A stretch of DNA of 64,000 nt. It comes from Vulcanimicrobiota bacterium. GTDB lineage: Bacteria; Vulcanimicrobiota; Vulcanimicrobiia; Vulcanimicrobiales; Vulcanimicrobiaceae. Position 1 is the stretch's first letter, and every line of letters begins with the position of its first letter. Both the position numbers and the translations under genes were made by a program. Shown here piece by piece: positions 8,942-19,737 of the stretch. The stretch is taken from positions 1 through 64,000 of the forward strand of contig JAFAJV010000078.1 in NCBI GenBank assembly GCA_019235995.1, read 5' to 3'. The notes under the pieces are model-generated. The model was not told the origin of the DNA and did not search any database. It was given only the letters and a program-made list of their open reading frames with translations.

Positions 8942-9766
8942 ATGCAAACGGCCCGGACCGTCGCGCAGGCGCGCGCGCTCTTTGGCGCGTCGCCGCGCCC
9001 GCTTGGATTCGTCCCGACCATGGGCGCGCTCCACGCCGGTCATCTCGAGCTGGTCAGGCGAGCGCGCCAAACGTGCGCGGCCGTGGCCGTTTCGATCTTC
9101 GTCAACCCGCTGCAGTTCGGCCCGAACGAAGATCTCGCCGCGTATCCGCGTGACGAGTCCGGCGATCGGCGCAAGCTCGCGGACGCGGGAGTGGACACGC
9201 TCTTCGTGCCCGACGCCGCAGAAATGTACCATCCCGATTTCACGAGCTACGTCGACATCGGACCGCTCGGCGAGATCCTAGAAGGGGCCGTGCGCCCGCA
9301 CCACTTTCGCGGCGTGGCGACCGTGATGGCGAAGCTGCTCAACATCGTGCGACCGGACGCGCTCTTTCTCGGGCAGAAGGACGCGCAGCAGGCGGCGATC
9401 CTGCGCAAGATGATCTTTGATCTGAACGTTCCGGTAGAGCTCGAGACCGTTCCCACCGTGCGCGAGCGCGACGGCCTCGCGATGTCGAGCCGCAACGGAT
9501 ACCTCGACGCGCAGCGCCGAGCGCAGGCGCCGACGTTGTATCGCGCTCTGCTCGCGACACGCGACGCACTTTCGGGCGGCGCTTCCAAGCCCGACGCGAT
9601 CGCTGCGGGCGCGGCGGTGCTGAGCCCAGCGGCGCGGCTCGACTATCTCGAGGTCGTTGATGCCACGACGTTCGCCCCGCTCGAGCCGCCGCGATCTCCC
9701 GCGCTGATCGTCGGCGCGGCGCGCTTCGGCTCGACGCGGCTCATCGACAACGTGGCATGGGAATGA
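8942..9766 (+). CDS. panC: Pantothenate synthetase
   Basis: Condenses pantoate and beta-alanine using ATP to make pantothenate (vitamin B5) in the cytoplasm. At 274 residues it has normal length. The HIGH-type nucleotide motif PTMGALHAGH (about 25-34), the IFVNPLQFGPNEDL segment, FLGQKDAQQ and the KMSKS-like MSSRNGYL region are all present. The gene is followed with a 10-base overlap by coaBC and then coaX, so three steps of CoA formation are encoded in one transcript; panB and panD are not here. Confidence 0.96.
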   Translation: MQTARTVAQARALFGASPRPLGFVPTMGALHAGHLELVRRARQTCAAVAVSIFVNPLQFGPNEDLAAYPRDESGDRRKLADAGVDTLFVPDAAEMYHPDFTSYVDIGPLGEILEGAVRPHHFRGVATVMAKLLNIVRPDALFLGQKDAQQAAILRKMIFDLNVPVELETVPTVRERDGLAMSSRNGYLDAQRRAQAPTLYRALLATRDALSGGASKPDAIAAGAAVLSPAARLDYLEVVDATTFAPLEPPRSPALIVGAARFGSTRLIDNVAWE

Positions 9767-10950
9767 ACGGCGCGCGCATCTTCCTCGGCGTCAGCGGCGG
9801 AATCGCCGCGTATAAGGCGGCGGCCCTCACGAGCACGCTCGTGCAACGCGGCGCGCTCGTTGACGTCGTGATGACATCCGAGGCGGAGCGTTTCGTCACG
9901 CCGCTCACCTTCGCGTCGCTCACGGCGCGGCCGGTCTACACGTCGCTCTGGGACACGCCCGAACGCATCCCGCACATCCGGCTCATCCGCGAGGCGGACG
10001 TCGCTCTCGTCTTGCCCGCGACCGCCAACCTCATCGCGAAGCTCGCGGCCGGAATTGCTGACGACCTCTTGACCGCGGCGCTGCTGGCGGCGCGCATCCC
10101 GCGCATCCTGGCGCCGGCGATGAACGAAACGATGTACGAGGACGCCGCGACGAAGGCGAATCTCGCGACGCTGCGCGCCCGCGGTTACGAAACCGTCGAT
10201 CCTGAGCGCGGCTTCCTGGCCGAACGCGAGTTCGGCGTCGGCCGGCTCGCCGGTGAGGAGCGCATCCTCCAGGCGCTCGAACGCACGCTCGCGCGGCGCC
10301 GAGCGTTGCGCGGGAAGCGCGTCGCGATCACGGCCGGTCCGACACGCGAGGCGTTCGATCCCGTCCGCTTCTTGAGCAACGCATCGAGCGGTGCGACGGG
10401 AATCGAGCTCGCGCGCGAGGCGGCGTTGCGCGGCGCGAGCGTGACGCTGATGCTCGGCCCGACTCTGCTCGAGCCGCCGGCCGGCGTGGACGTGGTGCGC
10501 GTCACGACGGCGAGCGAGCTCTACGACGCCGCGCTGGAACACGCGGCCGGCGCCGATCTGACGATCGCCACCGCGGCGGTTTCCGACTGGCGCCCCGCGG
10601 AGCGCTCCGACTCGAAGGTGAAGAAGTCGGGCGAGGCTCTCACCGTTGCGCTCGCGCCGAATCCCGACGTGCTCGCGGAGCTCGGACGGCGCAAGGGCTC
10701 GGGATTCTTGGTCGGTTTCGCCGCAGAGACCGACCATCACGAGAAGCGCGCGCGAGAGAAGCTGCGCGCGAAGCACCTCGACGCAATCGCGGTGAACGAC
10801 GTCGCCGGCGAACGCGGCTTCGGCCCCGGCCACAACGCGCTGGTGCTGCTGTGGGGCGACGAGGGGCGGCGCGAGCTGGGGGTTGCGGACAAGACGACTC
10901 TGGCCGCGCGGTTGCTCGACGCGGTCGAGGAGCTCATGCGATGCTCCTGA
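9757..10950 (+). CDS. coaBC: Phosphopantothenoylcysteine decarboxylase / phosphopantothenate-cysteine ligase
   Basis: Bifunctional Dfp enzyme, 397 residues. The CoaC flavoprotein half (about 1-180) has GVSGGIAAYKA, the active-site His in HIRLIREAD and the PAMNETMY substrate motif. The CoaB half (about 185-397) has ITAGPTREAFDPVR and SNASSGATG nucleotide/substrate regions. The stretch equivalent to the E. coli ACGD active-site flap reads FLAEREFGVGRL, so the Cys known in that enzyme is not seen; several lineages are known to vary here. Start is ATG 9757 or 9763, overlapping panC. The stop overlaps coaX by 10 bases. Confidence 0.95.
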   Translation: MGMNGARIFLGVSGGIAAYKAAALTSTLVQRGALVDVVMTSEAERFVTPLTFASLTARPVYTSLWDTPERIPHIRLIREADVALVLPATANLIAKLAAGIADDLLTAALLAARIPRILAPAMNETMYEDAATKANLATLRARGYETVDPERGFLAEREFGVGRLAGEERILQALERTLARRRALRGKRVAITAGPTREAFDPVRFLSNASSGATGIELAREAALRGASVTLMLGPTLLEPPAGVDVVRVTTASELYDAALEHAAGADLTIATAAVSDWRPAERSDSKVKKSGEALTVALAPNPDVLAELGRRKGSGFLVGFAAETDHHEKRAREKLRAKHLDAIAVNDVAGERGFGPGHNALVLLWGDEGRRELGVADKTTLAARLLDAVEELMRCS

Positions 10951-11729
10951 CGATCGATGTCGGCAATACCGAGACGAAGCTCGGCTGTTTCTCGGGCGCC
11001 GAGCTGAAGCACACGTGGCGCGTGACGACGGAATTGCGTCGCACGCCGGACGAGTACGGCGTGTTCTTCACGCAGCTCTTCGCGACCAGCGGCGTCGACC
11101 GCGGCGCGATCGACGCCGTCGCCGTCGCGAGCGTGGTGCCGAAGCTCGATCCGGTGCTCGAATCTGCGTGCCGGCGATTCTTCGACACCATGCCGCTGTT
11201 CTTGAAACCGGAGACGCAGAGCTTGATCCCGATCGTGACGGAGAACCCGTCGGAGGTCGGCGCCGATCTCGTCGCCGCCGCGATCGGAGCGCGAAGCGGC
11301 TTCGGTGCGCCCCTCATCGTCGTTAGCTACGGGACCGCCACGGCGTTCATCGCCATCTCACCGGCCGGCGAGTATCTCGGCGTCGCGATCGCACCCGGCG
11401 TCACGGTCTCGATCGACGCCTTGATCGGGCGCACCGCCAAGCTGCCGCAGATCGCCCTCGAGGCGCCGGGGAGCGCGATCGGCCGCAACACCATTGAGGC
11501 GCTGCAGAGCGGCGTCGTCTACGGCTTCGCCGGGCAGACCGAAGCGATCGTCGCGCGGATTCGCCGCGAGATGGGCGGCTCCGCGCGCGTCGTGGCGACC
11601 GGCGGCCTCGCCGAGATCGTCGCCAAGCAGACGCCCATCGTAGATGCGATCGACCCGCACCTGAGCCTGACGGGCTTGCGCCTGTTCTACGGTTCCGAGG
11701 CGCGCGGCGGCGACCCGTTTAAGAGATAA
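10941..11729 (+). CDS. coaX: Type III pantothenate kinase
   Basis: Phosphorylates pantothenate, the first committed step of CoA synthesis, with no feedback inhibition by CoA known for this type. 262 residues from ATG 10941, which overlaps coaBC. ASKHA-fold motifs are visible: DVGNTETKLG at the N-terminus (phosphate loop), GADLVAAAIGA (GADR in most homologues), the SYGTATAF strand and GVTVSIDALIGRTAKLP. Upstream in-frame codons belong to coaBC. It completes a panC-coaBC-coaX set. Three bases separate it from dusB. Confidence 0.95.
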   Translation: MLLTIDVGNTETKLGCFSGAELKHTWRVTTELRRTPDEYGVFFTQLFATSGVDRGAIDAVAVASVVPKLDPVLESACRRFFDTMPLFLKPETQSLIPIVTENPSEVGADLVAAAIGARSGFGAPLIVVSYGTATAFIAISPAGEYLGVAIAPGVTVSIDALIGRTAKLPQIALEAPGSAIGRNTIEALQSGVVYGFAGQTEAIVARIRREMGGSARVVATGGLAEIVAKQTPIVDAIDPHLSLTGLRLFYGSEARGGDPFKR

Positions 11730-11732
11730 CGC

Positions 11733-12734
11733 ATGCTATCCGCGCCGTTGCGCATTGGCTCGATGGACATCTGGCCGCCGCTGATTTTGGCGCCGATGTC
11801 CGGCGTGACGAACCGAACCATGCGTGCGCTCTACCGCCCCTTCGGGCTTGGGCTCACCGTGACCGAGTTCGTCTCTTCCAACGCGCTTGCGTACGGCAGC
11901 CGGCGGACGATGGAGATGATCGATCAGCACGGGCTCGAGAAGCCGGTCGCGACGCAGCTTTGGGGCGACGACCCGGCGACGATGGCATCCGCCGCGCGGC
12001 TCGTGCGCGAGTGCGGCGCAGACATCGTGGACATCAACTTCGGCTGTCCTGCGCCGAAGGTCACGAAGACCAACGGCGGGTCGGCATGCCTGCGCGATCC
12101 GGACCGCTGCGAGTCAATCATGCGAGCGGTCGTCGCGGCCGTGGACTGCCCCGTGACGATGAAGATGCGCCTGGGCTGGAGCGATGACGCTCTCGTTTAC
12201 GTCGACGTCGCGCGGCGAGCACAGGACGCCGGCGTGCAGGCCGTGACGCTGCACGCGCGCACGGCGAAACAGTTCTATAAAGGCGACGCCGATTGGGAAC
12301 ACATCGCTCGGCTGAAGGCGGCGGTCGATATCCCGGTGATCGGCAACGGCGACCTCGACGATCCCCACGTCGCGATGCGGCGAATGCGCGACAGCGGCGT
12401 CGACGCCGTCATGCTGGGCCGCGCCACGCTCGGCAACCCGTGGCTGATCTCACAGATCCGCGATCTGATGGAAGGGCGCGAGCCGCAGCCGCTGCCGGCC
12501 GCGCCGGACCGTCTGCGCTTCGCGCTCGTGCACTATCGCAGGATGGTGGAGGAGCTGGGCGAGCCGCGAGCGGTGCCGCAGATGCGCAAGCACGTCGCGC
12601 TGTATCTCAAGGGCATCCCGGGCGCGGCGTCGCTGCGCGAGCGTATCATGCGCCTCGATTTTGCCGCCGAAGCGATCGCAACGATCGAAGAAACCATCGA
12701 TCGGCTCGAGCAGGCACCGGCTGTCGCGGCATGA
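11733..12734 (+). CDS. dusB: tRNA-dihydrouridine synthase
   Basis: FMN enzyme that reduces uridine in the D-loop of tRNA. 333 residues. The TIM-barrel begins at LILAPMSGVTNR, followed by TQLWGDDP, the catalytic Cys105 in NFGCPAPKVTKTNGGSA, substrate-proton region VTLHARTAKQFYKGDADW and the FMN-phosphate motif VIGNGDLDDP ... VMLGRATLGNPWL. The C-terminal helical domain is complete. Gene context (pantothenate genes upstream, aminotransferase overlapping by ATGA) suggests a single long operon. Assignment to the DusB subgroup is from overall length and the motif spelling, and is less certain than the Dus assignment. Confidence 0.93.
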   Translation: MLSAPLRIGSMDIWPPLILAPMSGVTNRTMRALYRPFGLGLTVTEFVSSNALAYGSRRTMEMIDQHGLEKPVATQLWGDDPATMASAARLVRECGADIVDINFGCPAPKVTKTNGGSACLRDPDRCESIMRAVVAAVDCPVTMKMRLGWSDDALVYVDVARRAQDAGVQAVTLHARTAKQFYKGDADWEHIARLKAAVDIPVIGNGDLDDPHVAMRRMRDSGVDAVMLGRATLGNPWLISQIRDLMEGREPQPLPAAPDRLRFALVHYRRMVEELGEPRAVPQMRKHVALYLKGIPGAASLRERIMRLDFAAEAIATIEETIDRLEQAPAVAA

Positions 12735-14020
12735 TCGAGCAGGGTCGCGAGTTGTATGGCGCCGCTTCTCCGCAGGCGCTGGCCGCGGAGACCTACGAGA
12801 ATTACAAGCGGTACGTGAATCCGCCGCTCGCGCGCGTAATGAAGCTGTCGGGCTCGCCGGTCGAGGTACGCGCGCACGGCTGCACGATCTGGGATCACAC
12901 GGGCAAGGCGTACTTGGATTTCGCTGGAGGCTACGGAGTCTTCACGCTCGGTTACACGCATCCGAGGGTCGTCGCTGCGGTGCGCGCGCAGCTGGAGCTG
13001 ATCGCCCTCTCCGGCAAGACGATGTTCAACGTGCTGCTCGGCCGCGCCGCGCGCCGCCTCGCCGAGCTTGCTCCCGGCGACCTGCAGATCTCGTTTTGGT
13101 GCAACAGCGGAACCGAGGCGATCGAGGGCGCGATCAAGCTCGCGCGGGCCGCAACCGGCCGCGCGAAGATCGTCAGCACGCGCGACGCGTATCACGGCAA
13201 GACGCTCGGCGCGCTTTCGGTCAGCGGACGCGAGAGCTTTCAGTCGCCGTTTCGTCCGTTGCTGGCCGACTCGGTTTGCGTACCATACGGCGACGCCGCG
13301 GTGCTGGAACCAGCGCTACGCGATGCGGCCGCGTTCGTCGTCGAGCCCGTTCAGGGCGAGGGCGGCGTGAACGTGCCGCCCGTGGGGTATTTGAAGGCGG
13401 TGCGTGAGGCGTGCGACACGGCGGGCGCGCTGTTCGTCGCAGACGAGGTGCAGACGGGGCTCGGACGCTGCGGTTATCGCTTCGGGTGCGACCGCGACGG
13501 CGTGGTTCCGGACGTGATGACGCTCGCCAAGGGACTTTCGGGCGGCGTGGTCCCGGTCGGCGCGTTCATCGCGAAGGCCGGCGTGTGGGAGCGCGCGTTC
13601 GGCGATGCGCCGCTCGTCCATACCTCGACGTTCGGTGGCGCGGAGATCGCGTGCGCGGCGGCCCTGGCGGCGATGGACGTGTTGGAGGAGGACGCGCTGG
13701 CGCGGCGGGCCCGCGAGCGCGGCGAGCAGCTGTTGCGCGGCGCGCAAGCGATCGCCGGCGAGTTTCCCGCCGTCGTGCGCGAGGCGCGCGGCCTCGGATT
13801 GCTGGTCGGCGTCGAGCTGACGCACGAAGGCTACGGCGGGTACGTCATCCCCGAGATGCTCAAGGCGGGCGTGACGGCCGCGTGGACGCTCAATCAGCAG
13901 CGCGTCATTCGCCTCGAGCCGCCCCTGGTCGTGACCGAGTCCGAGATCGACTGCGCGCTGGCCGCGCTACGCGCAGGCATCGCGGCGGCGTACGAGAAGC
14001 TCGGCGACCTTTCCGCGTAG
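12731..14020 (+). CDS. Class III PLP aminotransferase
   Basis: 429 residues from ATG 12731, which overlaps the dusB stop. Fold-type I class III signatures: CNSGTEAIEGAIKLARA (phosphate binding, about 124-140), cofactor Asp238 in LFVADEVQTGLGR, Schiff-base Lys267 in TLAKGLSGGVVPVGAF, and STFGGAEIACAAA near 335. The N-terminus YENYKRYVNPPLARVMKLSG resembles the putrescine/ornithine aminotransferase branch (PatA-like) rather than ArgD. Likely substrates are omega-amines, amino acids or aldehydes, not defined here. It opens a run of five tightly spaced genes that includes an SRPBCC protein and an acyl-ACP-reductase-like protein, so the aldehyde of that enzyme is one conceivable amino acceptor. 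Confidence 0.85.
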   Translation: MIEQGRELYGAASPQALAAETYENYKRYVNPPLARVMKLSGSPVEVRAHGCTIWDHTGKAYLDFAGGYGVFTLGYTHPRVVAAVRAQLELIALSGKTMFNVLLGRAARRLAELAPGDLQISFWCNSGTEAIEGAIKLARAATGRAKIVSTRDAYHGKTLGALSVSGRESFQSPFRPLLADSVCVPYGDAAVLEPALRDAAAFVVEPVQGEGGVNVPPVGYLKAVREACDTAGALFVADEVQTGLGRCGYRFGCDRDGVVPDVMTLAKGLSGGVVPVGAFIAKAGVWERAFGDAPLVHTSTFGGAEIACAAALAAMDVLEEDALARRARERGEQLLRGAQAIAGEFPAVVREARGLGLLVGVELTHEGYGGYVIPEMLKAGVTAAWTLNQQRVIRLEPPLVVTESEIDCALAALRAGIAAAYEKLGDLSA

Positions 14021-14023
14021 CCG

Positions 14024-14461
14024 ATGCCCTATGTCGAGAGCAGGATCGTGATCGACGCCCCCGCGCGAGCCGTCTATGAGCTGGCCAAGGATCAAGAGCG
14101 ATTTCCGGAGTTCATGCCGGACGTCGAAACGGTGACGATCCTCGAACGCCGCGCCGACGGCGCGATCTCGCGCTGGAAGACGCTCGTCGAGGAGGCACCC
14201 ATCGAGTGGACCGAAGAGGATCGCTTCGACGACGCCGCGCTGCGGATTGAGTACCGGCTGCTCGAGGGCGATCTCGACAAATTCGAGGGGGCCTGGAGCT
14301 TCGAGCATCGGGACGGCGCCACGCATGTCGTACTCGGCGTCGACTACGACTTCGGCGTTCCGACGCTCGCCGAGCTGATCGGGCCAACCTTGCAAAAAAA
14401 AGTGCGCGAGAACAGCGAGATGATGCTGGCCGCGCTCAAACGTCAAGCGGAGCAACAATGA
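14024..14461 (+). CDS. SRPBCC (polyketide cyclase/START-like) protein
   Basis: A 145-residue protein covering one complete SRPBCC domain: start strand YVESRIVIDAPARAVYELAKDQERFPEFMPDV, a beta-sheet with WTEEDRFDD, and a long C-terminal helix (TLQKKVRENSEMMLAALKRQ). The family binds hydrophobic ligands in a deep cavity; members include CoQ10-binding COQ10 and aromatase/cyclases. Ligand here is unknown. It lies 3 bases after the aminotransferase and overlaps the methyltransferase by 4 bases, so it is probably a lipid or aromatic-ligand carrier or cyclase for this operon. Confidence 0.85.
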   Translation: MPYVESRIVIDAPARAVYELAKDQERFPEFMPDVETVTILERRADGAISRWKTLVEEAPIEWTEEDRFDDAALRIEYRLLEGDLDKFEGAWSFEHRDGATHVVLGVDYDFGVPTLAELIGPTLQKKVRENSEMMLAALKRQAEQQ

Positions 14462-15552
14462 AATACGAGCGGTTCCTCAACTCGCCGACGTTCAAGCGAT
14501 TCGTCCGGCGAAGGCTCTTCGATCGCGAGTCGGTGTTCAGCCGCATGCTGCTCGCGTGGTTCTCGGCGCGGTCGATGGGGCGCCGCCTCCCGGCCACCCC
14601 CGAAGGCATGCGCGACTCCGAGCTGTTCAAGCAGTGGTGGTACTACAGCTTCGAGCTGGCGCCCGGAGTGATGACCAGCTCGTCGTTTCCGGCGGACTTT
14701 CCGCTGCTGCCGAGGATGCTGCTGCGCAACGCCGAGCTCGCGGGGTGCGACTGCCTCGACATCGGCAGCGTCGAGGGGCTCATGCCGATCCTGATGTGCC
14801 GCCAGGGCGCGCGCGACGTGTTCGCGACGAACCCGCACCTGTACAACTACGAGAAGATGCAAGCCGTTCGCAAGCTCTTCGGCGTAAACTTCAAATTTCG
14901 TCAGATCGGCTCGCTCTACGACGTCAGCCGCAAGCTAGGCAACAAGAGCTTCGATCTGATTAACCTCTCGGGCGTGCTGTACCACGTCTGGTCTCCGATG
15001 CACGTCATCGCCGGCCTACGCCCGCTGCTGAAGAAGAACGGCCTGATGATCCTCTCGACCAACGTCGTGAAACGCAACGACTTCTCGATGGAGTTCAACG
15101 ACCGCGGCAAGCTCCAGCGCGAGGCGACGACGTACTGGTATCCGTCGATTCCGCTGTACGATTATCTGCTTCGCTACTTCGAGCTCCTGCCGATCGACTG
15201 TCTTTACCATCCGTACGCGCGCGACGACTCGACGCGCTTCACCTCCGAGTTCGAGTCGGGGTATCTCTCGGTCGTGTGCCGCGCGACCGACGACCCGTCG
15301 TTCGACTCGGACGACGGGTGGGCTCCGGAATCGATCACGGACTCCTACGAGAGCATTCTGCTCTGGGACCGGGCGAAGCAGGCGGCGCAGCCGGTTTCGA
15401 CGATCGGCTACCGGCACGCGCCAGACCCGCAGCTGCTCCACGCCAACGGACGTTCGCTCGATCTGTGGAAGGCCGTCGACGCGCTGCCTCCGGTCGGCGC
15501 CGCGAGCCAACCGCAAGACACGCACGCGCTGCTGCTGGCGGATCGAGCGTAA
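14458..15552 (+). CDS. SAM-dependent methyltransferase, class I
   Basis: 364 residues. Motif I is CLDIGSVEGLMPI (about 99-111), followed by an acidic loop and the motif-IV-like FDLINLSGVLYHVWSPM with a typical post-motif LRPLLKKNGLMILST. The N-terminal ~90 residues are helical and the region after 250 is an extra C-terminal extension rich in charged and small residues. The layout is similar to methyltransferases of the CmoB/DUF1698 type, but their carboxymethyl-uridine function cannot be assumed. ATG overlaps the SRPBCC stop (ATGA). Substrate unknown; the position in the operon suggests it acts on the same small molecule as its neighbours. Confidence 0.78.
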   Translation: MKYERFLNSPTFKRFVRRRLFDRESVFSRMLLAWFSARSMGRRLPATPEGMRDSELFKQWWYYSFELAPGVMTSSSFPADFPLLPRMLLRNAELAGCDCLDIGSVEGLMPILMCRQGARDVFATNPHLYNYEKMQAVRKLFGVNFKFRQIGSLYDVSRKLGNKSFDLINLSGVLYHVWSPMHVIAGLRPLLKKNGLMILSTNVVKRNDFSMEFNDRGKLQREATTYWYPSIPLYDYLLRYFELLPIDCLYHPYARDDSTRFTSEFESGYLSVVCRATDDPSFDSDDGWAPESITDSYESILLWDRAKQAAQPVSTIGYRHAPDPQLLHANGRSLDLWKAVDALPPVGAASQPQDTHALLLADRA

Positions 15553-15556
15553 CTAG

Positions 15557-16684
15557 GTGAATAAATTCTGTTTCGTGATTCATCCGCTGTCGTTCGACGA
15601 CATCGCCCGTTACGAGCCCGGCGCCAAGGGCAAGGGCGAGCCGATCCTGCGCAAGATCATGGAATGGATGCCGCCCTACGCCGCGGTGCACGTCACGGGC
15701 GTGCGCACGCCCGAAGGCCGCGAGACCGAGGGCTGGTTCGTCGCGGCCCCGCTGTTGCCGCAGCAGCTGATGGATTTTCCGCGCGAGGAGGTCTACCGGC
15801 GCGTGCTCGGCGCGATCGAGATCGGCGCGCAGCTCGGCGCGCAGGTCGCTGGCCTCGGCGCGTTCACCGGCGTCGTTGGTGACGCGGGGATCACGATCAA
15901 CGAGCGCTCGCCGATCCCGGTGACGACCGGCAACTCATTGACGATCGCCGCCGGCGTGCAGAGCCTCTTTCGCGGCGCGTCGGAGATGGGGATCGATCCG
16001 GCGTCGTCAACCGCAGCCGTCATCGGTGCGACCGGCTCGATCGGCGCCGCGTGCGTGCAGCTCATCGCGGCGAAGGTCAAGCGCGTAGTGCTCGTCGCGC
16101 GCAACGAGACGCGCCTGCGCAAGTTCCACGAGACCGTCGCGCCGGCGCTGCCGTGCGCGAGCGAGTACACGACGGACCTTTCGGCGGCCGTGCGCACCGC
16201 GCAGCTTATCCTAACGGCGACGAGCTCGACACAGGACGTCATCGAACCCGAAGCTCTGCAGACCGGCGTGGTGGTGTGCGAGCTCTCGTTGCCGCACGAC
16301 GTGAGCCGGCGCGTGGCAGAGCAGCGCCCCGACGTCCTCGTCGTCGAGGGCGGCAACATGCTCGTCCCCGGCACGCCGCGTTTCGAGCGGGTGCGCGAAC
16401 CCGGAACGGAGTTCGACCTGAACCTACCGCCCCACACTGCGCTCGCGTGCATGAGCGAGACGATGGTCCTCGCGCTGGAGGGTCGCCTGGAGCCGTACAC
16501 GCTCGGCCGCGGCATCAGCCTCGAACGCGTCGTCGAGATCTCGGAGATGGCAGATCGTTGCGGCTTCGAGCTCGCGAACATGCGCGCGTTCGATGCGGCG
16601 ATCACGCCGGAAACGCTCGCCGCTACGCGTGCGGCCGCCACCCTTCGACGGGCTCAGGATGACACGGTCAAGGTGACTCCATGA
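15557..16684 (+). CDS. Acyl-ACP reductase-like NAD(P)H oxidoreductase
   Basis: 375 residues from a GTG start. The layout follows cyanobacterial long-chain acyl-ACP reductase (AAR): an N-terminal alpha/beta region with GLGAFTGVVGDAG (about 99-111), TTGNSLTIAAGVQS, a Rossmann motif AVIGATGSIGAACVQL (154-169) and a C-terminal segment TALACMSETMVLALEGR in which Cys298 aligns with the acyl-thioester Cys of AAR. Homologues may also be annotated as shikimate/quinate dehydrogenases. If active it would reduce an acyl thioester to an aldehyde. No aldehyde-deformylating oxygenase is nearby. A short dispersed repeat supplies part of the last 15 codons. It overlaps the next gene by 4 bases. Confidence 0.72.
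   Translation: MNKFCFVIHPLSFDDIARYEPGAKGKGEPILRKIMEWMPPYAAVHVTGVRTPEGRETEGWFVAAPLLPQQLMDFPREEVYRRVLGAIEIGAQLGAQVAGLGAFTGVVGDAGITINERSPIPVTTGNSLTIAAGVQSLFRGASEMGIDPASSTAAVIGATGSIGAACVQLIAAKVKRVVLVARNETRLRKFHETVAPALPCASEYTTDLSAAVRTAQLILTATSSTQDVIEPEALQTGVVVCELSLPHDVSRRVAEQRPDVLVVEGGNMLVPGTPRFERVREPGTEFDLNLPPHTALACMSETMVLALEGRLEPYTLGRGISLERVVEISEMADRCGFELANMRAFDAAITPETLAATRAAATLRRAQDDTVKVTP
16641..16658. repeat. Short dispersed repeat (CCCTTCGAC-n-GCTCAGG type)
   Basis: CCCTTCGACGGGCTCAGG followed by ATGACA sits in frame at the very end of the acyl-ACP-reductase-like gene (encodes TLRRAQDD). It shares its core with at least two near-identical copies inside the helicase gene at 41921 and 42300. 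Elements of this sequence are widely dispersed in many bacterial genomes. Confidence 0.7.
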
Positions 16685-17586
16685 AGCGAGTCGTTTCGGT
16701 GTCGCTGGGCTCGAGCCGCCGCGACCATCGCGCGCGGATCCGCCTGTTGGGCGAAGAGTTCGACATCGCGCGGGTGGGGATGGACGGCAAGCTCGACGCG
16801 GCCATTGCGAAAGTGCACGAGCTCGACGGCGAGGTCGACGCGATCGGACTGGGCGGCATCGACGTCTACCTCTACGCGGGTCGCCATCGCTACGCGCTGC
16901 GCGACGGCCTGCGGCTGCTCGAGGCGGCTAACGTGACGCCAATCGTCGACGGAAGCGGCCTGAAGAACACGCTGGAACGCGAGGCCGTACGCTTCATGCA
17001 GGACGAGCTCGGCATCAGCCTGCGCGGCAAGCGCGTGCTGATGGTCAGCGCGCTGGATCGCTTCGGGATGGCGCAGGCGCTCGTCGACGCGGGAGCCGAC
17101 GTCCTGTTCGGCGACTTCATCTTCGCCCTGGACAAAGACATGCCGGTGCGCGACCTCCACGAGTTCGAGAAGATGGCGGAGAAGTATCTGCCCGACGCGT
17201 GTAAGTTGCCGTTCCAATTCTTCTATCCCACGGGAAAGAAGCAAGAAAAGCCGCCGGAGCCGAAATATCCCCAGTACTACGACGACGCCGAGATCATCGC
17301 CGGCGACTTCCATTTCATGCGCCAATTCATGCCCGAGCGGCTTGACGACAAGATCGTCTTGACGAACACGGTCACGGACGACGACGTCGAGGAGCTCGCC
17401 GCGCGCGGCATACGGATGCTGATCACTACGACGCCGGATATCGGCGGCCGGTCGTTCGGGACGAACGTTCTCGAGGCCGCGCTGCTGGCGCTGCTCGGAA
17501 AGCAATGGAGCGAGGTCGTGCCGTCGGATTACGAACGCGTGCTGCACGAGCTTGCGCTGAAACCCCGCGTCGTTAAGACGGATTAG
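16681..17586 (+). CDS. Conserved protein of the 'quinate 5-dehydrogenase' label, function unknown
   Basis: 301 residues, ATG overlapping the preceding stop (ATGA). The start MKRVVSVSLGSSRRDHRARI and the segments DAIGLGGIDVYLYAGRHRYALRD and PIVDGSGLKNTLEREAV are distinctive and, from memory, belong to a family often labelled quinate 5-dehydrogenase in genome annotation. No GxGxxG nucleotide-binding motif is visible, so the label is doubtful. A charged linker with Pro and Lys (TGKKQEKPPEPKYPQYYDD) lies near residue 190. It is the last gene of the five-gene run and always directly follows the AAR-like reductase here, so a shared pathway is likely. Confidence 0.65.
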   Translation: MKRVVSVSLGSSRRDHRARIRLLGEEFDIARVGMDGKLDAAIAKVHELDGEVDAIGLGGIDVYLYAGRHRYALRDGLRLLEAANVTPIVDGSGLKNTLEREAVRFMQDELGISLRGKRVLMVSALDRFGMAQALVDAGADVLFGDFIFALDKDMPVRDLHEFEKMAEKYLPDACKLPFQFFYPTGKKQEKPPEPKYPQYYDDAEIIAGDFHFMRQFMPERLDDKIVLTNTVTDDDVEELAARGIRMLITTTPDIGGRSFGTNVLEAALLALLGKQWSEVVPSDYERVLHELALKPRVVKTD

Positions 17587-17727: not shown

Positions 17728-18237
17728 TTGAACGACAAGGAGATCGTCCTGACCGCGGAAGGTCTATCGAAGCTGGAGCGGGAGCTCGACGAGCTCAAGA
17801 GCGTCCATCGCAAAGAGGTGAACGACCGCATCCGTCAGGCGAAAGAGTACGGCGACCTGAGCGAAAACGCCGAGTACGAAGACGCCAAGCAGGAGCAGGC
17901 GTTCATCGAAGGGCGTATTCTGAAGCTCGAGGCGATGATTCGCAACGCCCGCATCATCGATGAGTCCGAGTATGCCGCGGACGAGGTGCATCTGGGCGCG
18001 GTCGTCAAGGTCAAGGATCTCAAGAACAACGAGTCCTACGAATTTTCAATCGTCGGGTCGGCCGAGGCCGACCCGCCGAATCGGCGCATCTCCAACGAGT
18101 CGCCGCTAGGCAGCGCGCTGATGGGCCACAAGAAGGGCGTTACCGTCGACGTCGCCACGCCGCGCGGCCTCGTCAAATACAAGATCGAGTCGATCAAGAG
18201 CAGCGCACCGAAGAAGGCCGCAAAGAAAGCTTCGTAA
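17728..18237 (+). CDS. greA: Transcription elongation factor GreA
   Basis: 169 residues from TTG 17728, with GAGGA 9 bases upstream. The N-terminal coiled coil (about 1-75) contains LTAEGLSKLERELDELKSVHRKEV and the acidic tip GDLSENAEYEDAK, whose Asp/Glu residues promote RNA cleavage by RNA polymerase during arrest. The C-terminal FKBP-like domain has VGSAEADP ... ISNESPLGSALMGHKKG. A Lys/Ala-rich tail (SAPKKAAKKAS) extends slightly beyond the usual end. It is followed three bases later by lysS, a common pairing. Confidence 0.97.
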   Translation: MNDKEIVLTAEGLSKLERELDELKSVHRKEVNDRIRQAKEYGDLSENAEYEDAKQEQAFIEGRILKLEAMIRNARIIDESEYAADEVHLGAVVKVKDLKNNESYEFSIVGSAEADPPNRRISNESPLGSALMGHKKGVTVDVATPRGLVKYKIESIKSSAPKKAAKKAS

Positions 18238-18240
18238 CAC

Positions 18241-19737
18241 TTGGAAGAATTCGGCAAGACCGAAGCAGCACTCGTGGCGGCCAGACGTGAGAATCTGGCC
18301 GCTTTGCGTTCTCGGGGGAAGGATCCGTTCGCGCAGCGGCGCGCCGAGGTGACGGCGACCGCCGGCGAGCTGTTGGAGCGCTACGGCTTTCTTGCAGCTA
18401 CGCAGGACGCGGCCGCCGAGCAATGGAGCCTCGCGGGCCGGATCCTCTCGAAGCGCACGATGGGGAAGACGATCTTCGCCGACCTCGGGGACCGCACGAG
18501 CCGGCTGCAGCTCTACGTGCGCAAGCAGGACGTCGGCGAAGACGGCTTCGCCGACTGGAACGACCTCGACCGCGGGGATCTCGTCGCCGTGCGCGGCTAC
18601 ATGTTTCGCACCAAGCTGGGCGAGCTGACGCTGCACGTCACGGCGTTTCGCGCGATCGGCAAGGCCCTGCGGCCGCTGCCCGACAAGTGGCACGGGCTCC
18701 AGGACGTCGAGAAGCGCTATCGGCAGCGTTACGTCGACTTGATCGTCAATCCGGACGTCCGCGACACGCTGGTGATGCGCAGTCGCTTGATCGCCGAGAT
18801 GCGCCGCTTCATCGACGGAGCGGGCTTCTACGAGGTGGAGACGCCCACGCTATTGCACCTCGCGGGGGGAGCCGCGGCGCGACCGTTCGTGACGCACTGC
18901 AACGCCCTCGATAAGGCGATGCAGCTGCGCATCGCGACGGAGCTCAATCTCAAGCGGCTGATCGTCGCCGGGCTCGAACGCGTATACGAGATCGGCCGAA
19001 TCTTCCGCAACGAGGGCATCGACACGACGCACAACCCCGAGTTCACCATGCTCGAGCTCTATGCGGCGTATTGGGACGTCTCCGATATGATGGAGTTCAA
19101 CGAGGCGCTGATCGCGCATCTCGTTTCGGTCGCGACCGACGGCGGCACCGATCTGCCGCACGGCGACGGCGCCATCTCCTTCCAGCGGCCCTTCGCGCGC
19201 ATCGAGTATCTCGACGCGATGGCGCAATGCAGCGGCGGACGATACACGCGCGAGCGGCTGCTCGACTCCGTCGCAGCGCAGCAGATCCTGGGCGAGCTCG
19301 GCCTGCCGGCCTCGCCGACGCACGGCCACGCGCTCGACAAGATCTTCGAGCGCGTCGTCGAGCCGAGTCTGATCGTTCCGACGTTCGTCAGCGGCTATCC
19401 GGTCGTGATCTCGCCGCTCGCGAAGCGCCGCGCGGACGACCCGGAGATCGCGGACCGCTACGAGCTGTTCTGCGCCACCATGGAGATCTCCAACGCGTTC
19501 ACCGAGCTCAACGATCCCGACGACCAGCGCGCGCGTTTCGACGCGCAAGTGAGCGAGCGTCTCGCGGGAAACGAAGAGATTCCCGAGCCGGATTGGGACT
19601 ACGTTCGCGCGCTCGAATACGGCATGCCGCCGACCGCGGGCATCGGCGTCGGCGTCGACCGGCTGATCATGCTGCTGACCAACGCGCGCTCCATTCGCGA
19701 CGTGCTGCTCTTCCCGCTGCAGCGTCAGCACGGATGA
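18241..19737 (+). CDS. lysS: Lysyl-tRNA synthetase, class II
   Basis: 498 residues from TTG 18241. Domains: N-terminal helical part, OB-fold anticodon-binding domain (about 60-160), and class II catalytic domain. Motif 1 region ([26 protein letters not shown]), motif 2 ([20 protein letters not shown]) and motif 3 ([14 protein letters not shown]) are complete. Charges tRNA-Lys. It lies directly after greA and overlaps the acid phosphatase gene (ATGA). Spelling of the conserved [10 protein letters not shown] segment differs mildly from the common PF.THHN form. Confidence 0.96.

Follow-up and report, generated by a model that had tools for sequence, protein, structure and literature searches.

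The window analysed here is a 64,000-nucleotide stretch of DNA from a Vulcanimicrobiota bacterium (positions 1 to 64,000 of contig JAFAJV010000078.1, assembly GCA_019235995.1). It contains a cluster of five open reading frames (ORFs), all on the + strand. Four of these genes form a conserved unit and encode an aminotransferase (AT), an SRPBCC protein, a protein of the acyl-ACP reductase (AAR) type and a protein here called Q5DH. The new element of the cluster is Q5DH, whose model suggests an AAR-fold protein from which the catalytic parts of AAR are missing. The genes overlap or lie at most 4 bases apart (junctions of +3, -4, +4 and -4 bases), as had been described in an earlier reading of this DNA made without database searches, called the sequence-only reading below. 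The cluster consists of the following genes.

12731..14020, + strand: AT, a class III pyridoxal-phosphate aminotransferase; core gene; Pfam Aminotran_3, 3.8e-93.
14024..14461, + strand: SRPBCC, a COQ10/RatA-like hydrophobic-ligand-binding protein; core gene; Pfam Polyketide_cyc, 8.9e-19.
14458..15552, + strand: methyltransferase, CmoB/Methyltransf_9-like; accessory insert; Pfam Methyltransf_9, 2e-13.
15557..16684, GTG start, + strand: AAR-type acyl-thioester reductase (P0004), as predicted from its modelled fold, Cys298 and NAD(P) motif; core gene.
16681..17586, + strand: Q5DH (P0005), the 'quinate 5-dehydrogenase' of the sequence-only reading; core gene; modelled as an AAR fold with a seemingly altered active site.

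Judged by its model, P0004 is an AAR-type protein, and reductase activity is predicted for it. The predicted structure (pLDDT 91.6) matches cyanobacterial AAR 6jzu with a Z score of 36.6 (root-mean-square deviation 2.5 over 323 residues, 24% identity) and the carmabin TAD domain with a Z score of 35. All other families listed score below 15, the best of them 14.9 and glutamyl-tRNA reductase 14. Cys298 aligns with Cys296 of PigE and Cys294 of AAR and is invariant in all 25 sequences compared, as are R182 and the three glycines (G157, G160 and G163) of the NAD(P) loop GATGSIG, a GxxGxxG motif. The AAR-like identity, with Cys298 and a Rossmann motif, that the sequence-only reading had given to this protein is thus borne out.

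Among NCBIfam models PigE ranks first for P0004 (195 bits), and AAR scores 85 bits. Shikimate dehydrogenase, the competing identity named in the sequence-only reading, was rejected: the NCBIfam AroE models score about 17-21 bits where 235-295 would be required, and the fold over the whole chain is that of AAR. The sole Pfam match above cut-off is a weak one to the Rossmann domain Shikimate_DH (3.4e-08), and this AroE-type likeness is the likely source of the shikimate and quinate labels.

PigE is also the first-ranked NCBIfam model for AT (411 bits), with putrescine aminotransferase next (403). The two putrescine aminotransferase models, TIGR03372 and NF008570, score 349 of 659 and 403 of 612 bits, both below cut-off. 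In the PDB, AT matches the sequences of YgjG (1e-99) and of PigE (4ppm, 1e-87), and 4ppm is among the best matches of both AAR and AT. The expected Schiff-base lysine is present as K267 and is invariant in 18 relatives.

A structure model had been proposed as a way of examining the last protein, and the one obtained for Q5DH (pLDDT 89.9) has an AAR-like fold. Its best structural match is AAR (Z 14.8, root-mean-square deviation 4.0, 241 residues); the other scores are 14.4 for the carmabin TAD domain, 10.9 for malic enzyme and glutamate dehydrogenase, and 9.8 for AroE. The secondary-structure elements of the Q5DH and AAR models come in matching order. Placed by element order and motif spacing, rather than by superposed coordinates, Cys298 at the start of helix 297-307 of AAR appears to correspond to Asn262 at the start of helix 261-272 of Q5DH, and the GATGSIG loop to the Q5DH segment SALDRFG.

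An alignment of 47 Q5DH sequences contains no column that is mainly Cys, and a canonical Gly-rich dinucleotide loop was not found in Q5DH, in line with the earlier remark that this protein has no visible nucleotide motif. N262, D126 and R127 are invariant in all 47 sequences and belong to a set that also includes R14, D49, K95, D209 and R257. In distant copies from AAR-free genomes the Asn is retained, and the D-R pair is variable in some.

Q5DH belongs to no Pfam family and matches no NCBIfam AroE model. Its matches to PDB sequences are at chance level, searches of PHROGs and of plasmids gave no matches, and profile-profile comparison with AT and with SRPBCC revealed no similarity. The label 'quinate 5-dehydrogenase' is unconfirmed, since no annotated record of such a protein was found; as an identity it was rejected, there being no AroE match in the sequence and the model lying nearer to AAR than to AroE. 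Among the titles listed by literature searches on this label and on AAR in Firmicutes, none concerned the cluster.

Conservation within the phylum (Eremiobacterota or Vulcanimicrobiota) was followed in 98 genomes, of which 67 are near-complete. AAR is found in 91 of the 98 (66 of the 67 near-complete ones) and Q5DH in 90 (65 of the 67), each as a rule in single copy. Across the phylum, 20 loci drawn from various families and classes retain the order AT-SRPBCC-AAR-Q5DH, one of them broken by a contig end and one without a visible SRPBCC gene, so that SRPBCC is seen in 19 of 20. This core order is constant from the genus level up to the phylum, and a 4-base overlap between the AAR and Q5DH genes is frequent. 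Relatives at 80-85% identity carry the names Candidatus Eremiobacterota or Vulcanimicrobiota, which would put the window in this phylum.

The methyltransferase occurs in 4 of the 98 genomes, all of the window's genus, and lies inside the cluster wherever the locus was read. The conserved unit therefore has four genes (AT, SRPBCC, AAR and Q5DH) and not five, the methyltransferase being a local, genus-level insert. Of the five-gene order whose conservation across phyla the sequence-only reading had proposed to check, the order of the four core genes has held and the fifth gene has not; the separation of the genes in relatives, which would have spoken against that reading, did not occur within the phylum, where the core genes stand together.

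A single-contig genome of the same family (G025) shows the arrangement coaX-dusB-AT-SRPBCC-AAR-Q5DH-greA-lysS, interrupted between SRPBCC and AAR by an insert of 1.8 kb. The same slot, which in the window holds the methyltransferase, contains a beta-propeller-like ORF of opposite orientation in L031 (7250-7963(-)), L063, L069, L076 and L164. Inserts at this position were classed by eye as beta-propeller-like, MFS-like and GGDEF/EAL-like. The slot was considered as a site of varying tailoring enzymes, and this was rejected because the other inserts examined are unrelated ORFs that for the most part face the other way.

Relatives of Q5DH can also be found in Bacillota, Actinomycetota and other metagenome-assembled genomes (MAGs). 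In a sample of 199 genomes of Bacillota, the phylum of Carboxydothermus, Q5DH is present in 153 and a strong AAR match in 107. All 107 genomes with a strong AAR match have Q5DH (in at least one of them, G303, the match is a fusion), and in 91 of the 107 the two genes are adjacent in the order Q5DH-AAR, with a median gap of 46 bases. The co-occurrence of the two gives a Fisher p of about 1e-19, uncorrected for kinship. Among 60 sampled Actinomycetota genomes, 11 have Q5DH.

All four core genes stand together, with Q5DH first, in Oleimmundimicrobium (L088) and in an Actinomycetes MAG (L123). Several loci of Bacillota and Actinomycetota carry the Q5DH-AAR pair without AT, in the arrangement coaX-dusB-(helix-turn-helix protein)-Q5DH-AAR-greA-lysS, which is the neighbourhood found in the window. 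Desulfotomaculum-like genomes keep AAR at the dusB-greA locus and carry Q5DH elsewhere, its neighbours there being an SCP2-like protein and a transporter of the APC type. Some Bacillota genomes with Q5DH have AAR only as part of AT-AAR fusions, in ORFs of about 890-1030 residues, and at least two genomes, G150 and G272, have fusion-type AAR matches but lack Q5DH.

The SCP2-type lipid-carrier protein that follows Q5DH, together with the APC-type transporter, in L077, L080, L085 and other loci is 117 residues long. This neighbour, which is absent from the window's line, suggests lipid binding; with SRPBCC in the cluster itself, it suggests a hydrophobic substrate. In loci of Bacillota and Actinomycetota (L083, L088, L109, L110, L121, L124, L130 and L131-L134) the gene directly ahead of Q5DH or AAR encodes a protein of about 200 residues with an N-terminal helix-turn-helix, which in L148 precedes an AT-AAR fusion; it may be a regulator of the pathway. 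In the AAR slot of L128 (8940-9857) lies a 305-residue protein that appears by eye to be a highly diverged AAR without the motifs, and an Actinomycetota genome (G330:C21:18000-19840) has two Q5DH copies side by side.

In the window, the cluster is flanked by these genes.

10941..11729, + strand: coaX, type III pantothenate kinase, its start inferred from the sequence; upstream flank, kept in other phyla.
11733..12734, + strand: dusB, tRNA dihydrouridine synthase; NCBIfam TIGR00737, 353 bits, above cut-off; housekeeping flank outside the pathway.
17728..18237, + strand: greA-type transcript cleavage factor; downstream flank, also in the Bacillota and Actinomycetota loci.
18241..19737, + strand: lysS; downstream flank, kept in other phyla.

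The genes panC-coaBC-coaX-dusB (8942-12734) run without a gap into the cluster, and the 3' end of dusB overlaps the start of the AT gene by 4 bases. The cluster thus closes a longer series of more than five co-directional genes, in which the acyl-thioester reductase may share a transcript with the genes of coenzyme A (CoA) synthesis.

Precedents for the two catalytic steps can be found in fused enzymes. In PigE, an AAR-like domain reduces a thioester and a class III domain transaminates the resulting aldehyde (PMC8341465). PtTamH carries its transaminase ahead of its reductase; acting in a cascade with TamA, it yields fatty amines from a C12 acid by way of the ACP thioester (PMC9594044). KecF is interpreted in the same way (PMC6498172). 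The PpKT, Thermincola and Thermaerobacter fusions join the same two enzymes, and the fusions from thermophilic Bacillota show transaminase activity with glutamate (PMC10829540). The earlier statement that no described pathway matches this set of genes was therefore too strong, since PigE, TamH and KecF are fused precedents.

The window's proteins resemble PigE (NF053554, 4ppm) in both activities, as predicted by homology, and in their retained catalytic residues. They differ from it in several ways. PigE is one chain with the reductase N-terminal, whereas here there are two proteins, with AT first and with SRPBCC and Q5DH added. Their scores of 195 and 411 bits fall far below the 850-bit cut-off, so neither protein is a member of the PigE family, and no prodigiosin genes were seen beside the cluster.

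PtTamH, KecF, PP_2782 and the Thermincola and Thermaerobacter proteins have an N-terminal transaminase and a C-terminal reductase, as in the AT-then-AAR gene order here, and PtTamH shares the making of amines from acyl thioesters. Unlike the products of the present genes, these proteins are fused, and they lie in secondary-metabolite clusters or have no known role. Cyanobacterial AAR (6jzu, 6jzq) resembles P0004 in whole-chain fold, catalytic Cys and Gly-rich NAD(P) loop, but passes its aldehyde to ADO, and no ADO was seen in the neighbourhood of the window's cluster. The carmabin TAD domain (9e4u and relatives) shares the AAR-type fold of P0004 and, remotely, that of Q5DH, but it is part of an assembly line, at about 1928-2300 of its chain, and not a free protein.

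In a tree of AAR sequences, the Bacillota AT-AAR fusions group in a clade of their own, apart from the split AARs of Eremiobacterota, with weakly supported deep forks. PigE and cyanobacterial AAR stand on very long branches from the clade studied here. The separate fusion clade and these long branches indicate that the cluster is not a recent split of PigE.

The analysis demonstrates the genes themselves, how they are ordered and conserved, which folds are predicted for their products, which catalytic residues these have, and that AAR is coupled to Q5DH; the activity, substrate class, direction and Q5DH-AAR complex proposed below go beyond this and are inferred. The reading favoured here, which has about an even chance of being right, is a split amine-forming pathway of the PigE/TamH type with a catalytically altered AAR-fold partner. 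Cys298 of AAR would accept the acyl group of a CoA or ACP thioester, NAD(P)H-dependent reduction by AAR would turn this group into an aldehyde, and AT would convert the aldehyde into a primary amine with an amino acid such as glutamate as donor. SRPBCC may bind or present the hydrophobic chain, and in the window's genus alone the methyltransferase may decorate the product. That PigE is the top NCBIfam match of both AAR and AT lends support to the route from acyl group to aldehyde to amine that the sequence-only reading had suggested.

Q5DH is probably a non-reducing subunit that associates with AAR and might serve, for instance, in docking of the acyl donor, in allostery or in handing over the aldehyde. 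Because Q5DH is tied to AAR and has the same predicted fold without the catalytic parts, a partner subunit is the simplest reading.

Several observations weigh against this account. Profile-profile comparison finds no sequence similarity between Q5DH and AAR, so the link between the two rests on fold and gene pairing. The long branches leading to PigE and cyanobacterial AAR count here as well, and AT, which is under both curated cut-offs, is almost as near to putrescine aminotransferase as to PigE. Some Bacillota genomes with Q5DH have no clear AAR, and Q5DH may therefore have a separate role of its own. Finally, the AAR-Q5DH pair of Bacillota and Actinomycetota mostly lacks a neighbouring AT, so the ancestral product of the pair may be an aldehyde or an alcohol.

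This last point can be extended to a different history. AAR and Q5DH would be an ancestral two-subunit acyl reductase whose fatty aldehyde goes into a lipid, wax or alcohol, and AT and SRPBCC, added in the Eremiobacterota line, may use only part of the flux. The AT-free pairs at the conserved coaX-lysS locus fit such a history, as does the place of the Eremiobacterota AARs apart from the fusions in the tree, with its weakly supported deep forks. It is nevertheless rather unlikely, since AT is first in the cluster in every Eremiobacterota locus long enough to show it, and no ADO, alcohol dehydrogenase or other aldehyde-using enzyme was noticed next to the pairs in Bacillota.

An independent enzymatic role of Q5DH is the main alternative to a partner subunit because Q5DH outlasts AAR in some genomes. 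Q5DH would then carry out a different chemistry on a substrate supplied by AAR, AT and SRPBCC. Its wider retention in Bacillota and its large set of invariant residues are consistent with this, but Q5DH has no known active-site signature and is encoded beside AAR in the large majority of AAR genomes, which makes such a role rather unlikely.

The cluster could also work in the catabolic direction, with AT deaminating an amine or diamine to an aldehyde that AAR oxidises to an acyl thioester. Such reactions are reversible in principle, and AT is very near to the putrescine aminotransferase YgjG. AAR-family enzymes of known role are reductases, however, and the cluster has no transporter or regulator; unlike a diamine degradation operon, it is near-universal in its phylum and stands beside CoA-synthesis genes. 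This direction is quite improbable. An aminoacyl-tRNA substrate, suggested by the conserved lysS, dusB and greA neighbourhood and by glutamyl-tRNA reductase among the distant structural relatives of P0004, deserves very little credence, since that enzyme aligns over far fewer residues than acyl-ACP reductase, at much lower Z, and the lysS-greA adjacency is an old housekeeping arrangement.

The cluster is real and strongly conserved; there is precedent for both catalytic steps, and the AAR-fold partner is new. For the protein labelled 'quinate 5-dehydrogenase', an identity as an AAR-fold companion of AAR with an altered active site is suggested. The reductase and transaminase pairs of this kind that are known serve secondary metabolism, in the making of prodigiosin, tambjamine and koreenceine. 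In this cluster, the same chemistry is predicted from single-copy genes that are near-universal in the phylum and lie beside genes for CoA synthesis and translation, which indicates a role in basic physiology. The cultivated Eremiobacterota species Vulcanimicrobium alpinus WC8-2, with a genome of 3.50 Mbp and 68.4% G+C, has reported polar lipids that are all unidentified (PMC9758169). More tentatively, AAR and Q5DH may be the two subunits, one of them non-catalytic, of an unrecognised and very widespread bacterial acyl-thioester reductase, which in Eremiobacterota, with its own transaminase, would make an amine for core cell chemistry, such as a building block of an amino-lipid.

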